A program made the translations under genes and the position numbers. This document shows positions 43,241 to 46,605 of a stretch of 64,000 bases of DNA, in pieces. Numbering within the stretch: position 1 is the first letter of the stretch; each line of letters opens with the position of its first letter. Source of the stretch: Cyanobium sp. NIES-981 (GTDB taxonomy: Bacteria > Cyanobacteriota > Cyanobacteriia > PCC-6307 > Cyanobiaceae); assembly GCF_900088535.1 (NCBI RefSeq), contig NZ_LT578417.1:1674001-1738000 (forward strand). The letters run 5' to 3'. The notes beneath the pieces were generated by a model. The model was not told where the DNA came from and searched no databases. It was given only the letters and a program-made list of their open reading frames with translations.

Positions 43241-43330
43241 GGCGGCAGGGGAACGCAGGGGGTCGGGATCAGGGCCGTGCTGACAGCGGGCTGACAGGCG
43301 CAGGCTCCATGGCGATAATGGCCCGCTGTA

Positions 43331-43403
43331 GGGGAATTAGCTCAGCTGGTAGAGCGCTGCGATCGCACCGCAGAGGTCAGGGGTTCGAGTCCCCTATTCT
43401 CCA
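43331..43403 (+). tRNA. tRNA-Ala (CGC anticodon)
   Basis: 73-nt cloverleaf. Acceptor GGGGAAT / ATTCTCC includes the G3-U70 wobble that identifies alanine tRNAs; discriminator A. Anticodon stem CTGCG / CGCAG with loop ATCGCAC gives CGC. T arm GGGGTTCGAGTCCCC. No encoded CCA. The anticodon arm overlaps a HIP1 octamer (GCGATCGC). Confidence 0.97.
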
Positions 43404-43438
43404 CTTCCCGCACCGGCGGCCCACCCTGCCGCCCTGAC

Positions 43439-43554
43439 CCGATGCTCCGGATCTGATGCTCCGGACCTGATGCCCCCGCTGATGACCCAGACGTGACGGA
43501 GTGCGCCTGATCCTGATGGAGTGGACCTGATGGAGTCGACCTGATGGAGTGGAC
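43439..43554. repeat. 14-nt tandem repeats leading into the PCP_red mini-gene
   Basis: Degenerate 14-nt array. CCGATGCTCCGGAT (43439) and CTGATGCTCCGGAC (43453) are near-identical neighbours, with CTGATGCCCCCGCT following. After a diverged stretch come CTGATGGAGTGGAC (43513), CTGATGGAGTCGAC (43527) and CTGATGGAGTGGAC (43541). The last unit holds the ATG (43544) and first codons of the small downstream gene; the earlier ATGs fall in the other two frames. Confidence 0.8.
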
Positions 43555-43705
43555 CAGCGAGGCCGAGAACCGGCTCAAGGAAGTGCCATTCTTCGTGCGG
43601 CCGGCCGTGCGGCGCCGTATCGAAGCGATGGCCGCCGAGGCTGGCGTGCAGCCGATCGACGAGGCCTTCTACGCCATGGCCCGTGAGCGGTTCGGCCAGA
43701 AATGA
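43544..43705 (+). CDS. PCP_red domain mini-protein (ChlB C-terminal domain-like)
   Basis: 53 residues from ATG at 43544 (MEWTSEAENRLKEVP...), ending RFGQK and TGA. The pattern Trp-x(3)-Ala-x(2)-Arg-Leu-x(2)-Val-Pro-Phe-Phe-Val-Arg, then Arg-Arg-Arg-Ile-Glu and IDEAFY, matches the PCP_red domain otherwise found at the C-terminus of the ChlB subunit of dark-operative protochlorophyllide reductase. Stand-alone versions exist in cyanobacteria; function unknown, possibly an assembly or nucleic-acid/protein-binding module. No strong ribosome-binding site; the start lies in a tandem repeat. Too short for most gene finders. Confidence 0.78.
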   Translation: MEWTSEAENRLKEVPFFVRPAVRRRIEAMAAEAGVQPIDEAFYAMARERFGQK

Positions 43706-46426: not shown

Positions 46427-46564
46427 ATGGAATCCTCCGGTTTCACCCTCGCCAGCGTGCTGCTGGCCGGCAGCGGCCTGTTCTGCCTGGCCACGCTGTT
46501 CTTCGGCACCAAGGGCGGGTACTACGACACGGAGGCCTACGACGGCAACGGCACAGCCCACTGA
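46427..46564 (+). CDS. 45-residue single-span membrane protein, possibly NdhP-like
   Basis: Reads [17 protein letters not shown]..., one membrane helix (about 6-26), then [21 protein letters not shown], a soluble tail. The short length, single span and conserved FGTKGGxYDT-type tail resemble small subunits of the cyanobacterial NDH-1 complex (NdhP), but I recall this only loosely; PSII/PSI small subunits are alternatives. It is divergent from mpg with starts almost touching (13 nt). Its stop starts a 15-nt tandem repeat. Too short for the usual ORF cutoff. Confidence 0.72.
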
Positions 46565-46605
46565 TGCAGTGGAGACTGATGCAGTGCAGGCTGATGCCTT
46601 GCCCT
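46561..46605. repeat. 15-nt tandem repeat beginning at a stop codon
   Basis: CTGATGCAGTGGAGA (46561), CTGATGCAGTGCAGG (46576) and CTGATGCCTTGCCCT (46591), the third diverged. The TGA of the 45-residue gene is at 46562 and recurs in the same frame in each unit. Confidence 0.78.

Follow-up and report, generated by a model that had tools for sequence, protein, structure and literature searches.

A 14-nt tandem array at the start of a stand-alone PCP_red gene in Cyanobium sp. NIES-981 and its probable origin from the gene start

Small tandem duplications, which appear as minisatellite-like arrays, originate by replication slippage between short direct repeats, and in repeat-based contingency loci such as the lic genes several ATGs lie near the repeat. 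A locus reminiscent of both is present in Cyanobium sp. NIES-981 within the 64,000-nt stretch of DNA analysed here (the window), where 14-nt units run into the start of a stand-alone PCP_red gene. It resembles minisatellite-like arrays in its head-to-tail 14-nt units, in the coexistence of fresh and decayed copies and in the 4-nt direct repeat that occurs at unit spacing in a single-copy relative, but differs in that the unit spans a start codon, so that a ribosome-binding element and short open reading frames (ORFs) are copied too. With contingency loci it shares repeats near a start and ATGs in three frames; here, however, the extra copies are located upstream of the real start, ATG 43544, so that a change in copy number leaves the frame of the gene unaffected, and the hallmark of a phase-variable locus, i.e. 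a reading frame that changes with copy number, is missing.

Two further systems invite comparison. According to PMC4679880, TAACTGA heptamer direct repeats of Beggiatoaceae, cyanobacteria and other groups often lie close to start codons, and on that account the likeness extends to the intergenic position, the nearness to start codons, the stops brought into frames and the lineage-specific places. By the same description, however, TAACTGA repeats form many sets over a genome, whereas here there is a single locus, apparently derived from its own gene start, with another unit of another length; its unit CTGATGGAGTGGAC, present only here in the genome (≤1 mismatch), does not belong to the heptamer class. 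Translational coupling at TGATG overlaps, as treated in PMC6728339, offers a parallel in that the fresh units are joined by TGATG, but the upstream ORFs have only four codons here, are not genes and are not conserved. On the leader of the PCP_red gene itself, a search of the open-licence PMC literature found nothing.

The array and the gene behind it

The gene occupies 43544-43705 on the forward strand and comprises 53 codons. It belongs to PF08369 with 58.5 bits against a gathering cut-off of 32.5, profile positions 1-45 of 45 being covered, and the PDB matches of its protein are Asr4154 (2l09) and chains of light-independent protochlorophyllide reductase subunit B (ChlB/BchB-type). Against the closest relative found (G001, which matches the PCP_red gene at 79% and the 45-aa ORF downstream of it at 98%), dN is 0.11 and dS 0.35, values as would be expected of a gene under purifying selection.

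For comparison, 80 stand-alone PCP_red loci were assembled, i.e. 13 from the genus (window included), 23 more from a search of 201 family genomes and 44 from GTDB contigs, with one genome per species compared and the window's genome designated G000. A recognizable core is present in 79 of these, and 69 are distinct after removal of L063, in which the core motif was not found, and of 10 near-duplicates; de-duplication meant identical sequence from -40 to +120, so that close strains may count more than once, and the 69 are the loci obtained as sequence, not every family match. Left out of the set were L014-L028 (mostly ChlB and own-genome pattern matches) and L096 (a 40% match). Some records are peculiar in their own right. 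Stand-alone PCP_red copies in two relatives of one genus (G093 C1:1645412-1645567 and G136 C50:264-419) contain one in-frame stop each (TAA and TAG, respectively), possibly through decay or sequencing error; contig C26 of G151 has two stand-alone PCP_red genes (1141-1296 and 2234-2392) about 1 kb apart; and L068, titled as a Bifidobacterium breve MAG, has a picocyanobacterial tRNA-Ala and PCP_red locus, the record probably being mislabelled or contaminated.

At the start of the gene, the unit CTGATGGAGTGGAC is repeated three times head-to-tail on the forward strand, at 43513-43526, 43527-43540 and 43541-43554, with 0, 1 and 0 mismatches. Tandem Repeats Finder (TRF) places this fresh array at 43512-43555 with a period of 14, 3.1 copies and a score of 81, a score reached by none of 1000 dinucleotide shuffles of 43405-43705 (largest 67) and by none of 20 shuffles of the whole window (largest 71); the head-to-tail copies at 43513-43554 are thus beyond chance, and the 14-mer has these three as its only sites (≤1 mismatch) in the whole single-contig 3.02-Mb genome. 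In the first fresh unit, ATG 43516 reads M-E-W-T-stop; in the second, CTGATGGAGTCGAC, ATG 43530 reads M-E-S-T-stop and an SD-like GGAG lies at 43532-43535; the third, with the gene start ATG GAG TGG AC(C), is the copy at what appears to be the ancestral place. Being spaced by 14 nt, the ATGs at 43516, 43530 and 43544 each fall into a different frame, and the 53-codon ORF is that of 43544 alone. The triple unit with its ATGs in three frames, of which the last alone opens the gene, had been described in an initial annotation of this DNA, and both points are borne out by the mismatch counts, the TRF score with its shuffles and the ORF at 43544-43705.

Absent from that annotation were the older units 5' of the three fresh copies. 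A run at 43436-43473 has the same period of 14, the unit GACCTGATGCTCCG and a TRF score of 62, which was reached by 2 of 1000 regional shuffles; with boundaries drawn by eye, it holds two older units, CCGATGCTCCGGAT and CTGATGCTCCGGAC, at 43439-43466. On the same strand there follow two CTGATG units in a degraded state, 12 and 14 nt long (43467-43492, by eye, with ATGs at 43470 and 43482) and, at 43493-43512, the diverged unit GTGACGGAGTGCGC (43493-43506, matching the fresh unit at 10 of 14 positions) with a 6-nt remnant CTGATC, these boundaries also being drawn by eye; at the diverged unit TRF reports 43494-43531 with a period of 20 and a score of 55. By eye, 43439-43554 is legible almost throughout as a single 14-nt array in decay.

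Further upstream, at 43331-43404 on the forward strand, lies a tRNA-Ala gene (anticodon CGC; ARAGORN, Rfam RF00005). In 58 of the 69 distinct loci it is the nearest tRNA upstream on the same strand, with distances ranging from 4 to 1348 nt, and in 37 of the 69 it is found within 100 nt, the window's being at 139 nt; the stretch compared contains no upstream same-strand tRNA in the other 11. A promoter-like site precedes the tRNA at 43291-43319, but across loci the signal is weak, a -10-like site being present in the corresponding position in only 21 of 57. The PCP_red gene may be co-transcribed with tRNA-Ala, and with a gap that can be as short as 4 nt, 3' processing of the tRNA may release its mRNA.

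Age of the start codon and origin of the array

A central question is whether the repeat made the start of the gene or the start seeded the repeat. The initial annotation had favoured the former, with the repeat supplying the start codon and perhaps creating a new 5' end for the gene, and the last unit does hold the start codon. Yet the position homologous to 43544 carries a start codon in 64 of the 69 distinct loci, window included (53 ATG, 8 GTG and 3 TTG). A tryptophan at residue 3 is found in 66 of the 69 loci by fixed offset, and a start-x-Trp beginning in 67 when L093, L094 and L095 are added (one-residue offset, by eye); the last two loci, L003 and L010, have an ATG four codons upstream instead. 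Some relatives, e.g. L033, L060, L078 and L079, contain an additional in-frame ATG two to four codons upstream, so that their exact start is less certain. In none of the other 68 distinct loci is the start region copied in tandem (200 nt upstream, ≤3 mismatches); besides the window's two copies, the scan gave only three matches, each isolated and with 3 mismatches, at -146, -168 and -188. With start-x-Trp beginnings in relatives that have no array, a start created by the repeat is hardly credible, and on balance the PCP_red start codon is ancestral and older than the array.

The comparison of upstream regions across picocyanobacteria thus upholds the start at 43544 but speaks against the repeat as its origin (0 of 68 other loci with an array). 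The initial annotation had itself raised the alternative of a conserved start inside the coding part, and the 64 loci that start at the homologous position argue otherwise. A wrong start annotation was also considered and rejected: from the preceding stop codon to 43544 no ATG, GTG or TTG occurs in frame, and relatives retain the homologous start. Position 43544 is therefore the most likely beginning of the gene.

Where the unit comes from is suggested by G001, whose start region reads ...TTGACCTG ATGCAGTGGACC... as a single copy preceded by GACCTG; from GACC to GACC around this single copy the distance is 14 nt, the same as the array period. The fresh units are identical to the 11 bases with which the gene's coding sequence opens, and several array-free relatives (e.g. 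L032, L038 and L041) have these bases as well. Because the start is kept in array-free relatives and is single-copy in G001, with its GACC words 14 nt apart, we consider it very probable, judging from these comparisons, that the start seeded the repeat and that the array is an ordinary small tandem duplication of an older gene start in the lineage of this genome.

In such a scenario, slippage in the G000 lineage from one GACC word to the next, 14 nt away, would have duplicated the last three leader bases together with the first eleven coding bases of the old gene. Copies would have accumulated upstream, with the 3'-most copy holding the real start in the gene's frame, so that the protein would remain unchanged and expansion would be tolerated, presumably as a neutral change. 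Older copies would have decayed, leaving a leader that is mostly degraded array, and the by-products would be an SD-like GGAG 8 nt before the real ATG and four-codon ORFs ending in a TGA that overlaps the next ATG. The polarity of this process rests on parsimony, since one genome per species was compared, and gain before the split of G000 and G001 with subsequent loss in G001 is possible; outside the start, alignment between the two leaders is poor. The PCP_red start does not account for a similar array 3 kb away, at 46560, and this weighs against the duplication reading.

Related arrays and possible stop-restart in the leader

Short tandem arrays as such are a common background feature of this genome: 52 arrays with a period of 10-30 and a score of at least 60 occur in 464 kb (the window and 20 sampled stretches), many of them inside long open frames. 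Duplication at the boundary of a coding sequence leaves the protein intact, because what is added comes to lie beyond the coding part, 5' of a start or 3' of a stop. Among nine arrays inspected, a 17-nt pair covers the stop of a 280-codon frame (L139) and a 19-nt pair ends 2 nt before a 223-codon ATG-first frame (L151), both being open frames and not annotated genes. The array at 46560-46597 has a 15-nt unit, ACTGATGCAGTGCAG, in 2.5 copies and starts where a 45-aa ORF ends (stop codon 46562-46564); its first unit resembles the PCP_red-start unit at 12 of 14 positions. All 13 genus genomes retain this ORF, 46427-46564, which matches no Pfam or NCBIfam model, and the array itself is absent from the 12 other genus genomes. 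Comparable in position are CTGATG arrays that start from the stops of 418-, 459- and 285-codon open frames in L111 (G007), L125 (G011) and L117 (G012), respectively, which mirrors the start-codon case.

If such arrays belonged together, the leader could be one member of a dispersed CTGATG repeat family inserted at gene edges and would not have grown from the PCP_red start. CTGATG triples (spacing 9-30 nt) are indeed present in every genus genome (13 of 13), and of 201 family genomes 18 have TGATG triples spaced by 14 nt; several of nine inspected loci in relatives are tandem arrays outside long frames, with the stop codon of an open frame in the first CTGATG (L111, L125) or the second (L117), and the related 15-nt array 3 kb away likewise starts at a stop codon. 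On the other hand, two sequences that recur across species make up 15 of the 32 listed genus triples, the commoner of the two being without a stop by eye, and units differ between loci apart from the CTGATG core for which they were searched. Within this genome, the window has three arrays with the core (the one at 46560 and two of the leader), and the sole CTGATG triple in the rest (same spacing) is a sequence shared by 11 of 13 genus genomes, an open frame by eye. No CTGATG triple was found in 400 kb outside the window, where 548 similarly abundant hexamers average 0.21; a control with the reversed hexamer was given no weight, as this hexamer is much rarer in the genome (93 versus 333 occurrences in 400 kb), which makes the comparison unfair. 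Moreover, the fresh units match the gene's own first 11 coding bases, and no near-identical array (≤1 mismatch) exists elsewhere in the genome. A dispersed family is therefore not the better reading, even though CTGATG-core arrays occur in relatives, and we regard it as very improbable; in this genome CTGATG arrays are a local matter. A weak group-wide tendency to form them is possible, given that other genus members have them elsewhere, starting from stop codons in L111, L117 and L125.

A different question is whether the array has acquired a function. With a unit length of 3n+2 and a TG in front of ATG, the frame opened by either upstream ATG of the fresh units has four codons and closes at a TGA whose A is also the first base of the next ATG. 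The resulting TGATG overlaps at 43528-43532 and 43542-43546 are the overlapping stop and start on which termination-reinitiation coupling depends; the overlap ascribed to each unit by the initial annotation is real in the fresh units, and restart is geometrically possible. Ribosomes might thus load at an upstream ATG, translate four codons, stop at TGA and restart, so that the array would raise or tune PCP_red translation with copy number setting the level. Both ATG 43516 and ATG 43530 end in overlaps that lead to 43544, GGAG lies 8 nt before both ATG 43530 and ATG 43544, and if GTG is counted besides ATG and restart is allowed from -4 to +6 nt, the gene can be reached from 9 of 9 leader starts, a count that has no shuffle baseline. 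With ATG only, however, this holds for 2 of 6 leader ATGs, which is equalled or bettered by 322 of 2000 shuffled leaders. The chain is not clearly more ordered than chance, an exact TGATG ladder of at least two links occurring in 306 of 5000 shuffled leaders, it is not conserved (0 of 68 other loci), and the leader folds like its own shuffles (z 0.22). For overlapping gene pairs, PMC6728339 gives measured coupling in E. coli and an archaeon, but also a low share of such pairs in cyanobacteria and one E. coli pair without coupling. A survey of leader ORFs (PMC4833913) has no distance peak in cyanobacteria, though it does not treat overlaps. A relay of this kind is possible from the arrangement of codons, which bears no clear sign of selection, but that it operates as a functional device seems unlikely.

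Possible consequences for translation

The copied GGAG (43532-43535), which comes from the start and second codons of the neighbouring copy and sits 8 nt before ATG 43544, gives the leader a Shine-Dalgarno (SD)-like element. For anti-SD pairing of the 43544 leader the calculation yields -5.9 kcal/mol, compared with -1.5 for G001 and a median value of -2.4, which places the leader at rank 10 of 69, with the 16S tail taken as the bases adjoining the 16S core in this genome, which may not be the mature 3' end; with an assumed tail the rank is 14 of 68 under a different de-duplication. Of the 69 loci, 8 have an SD-like 4-mer whose end lies 4-11 nt ahead of the start, and of the 13 genus members 2 do. 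The fold of the start region, computed for the window and four relatives, is on average no more stable than that of shuffles, with L006 about equal. In PMC6847405, SD-facilitated genes are reported to have higher protein abundance in two cyanobacteria, with protein per transcript raised in one only, so that a modest gain in translation from the copied SD-like element is plausible. Any effect of the array on translation would probably be slight. A more far-reaching proposal, i.e. that duplication of the start region provided in one step both an SD element and a self-consistent chain of four-codon ORFs, with copy number acting as a frame-safe tunable translation enhancer of a tRNA-linked gene, is speculative and, in our judgement, rather improbable.

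Overall, the locus would represent a clean case in which tandem duplication across a start codon alters the leader and leaves the protein untouched, and it corrects the tempting reading of a repeat as the maker of the start that it contains. If the gained ribosome-binding element matters, such duplication would also offer a simple route from a weak to a better Shine-Dalgarno context.
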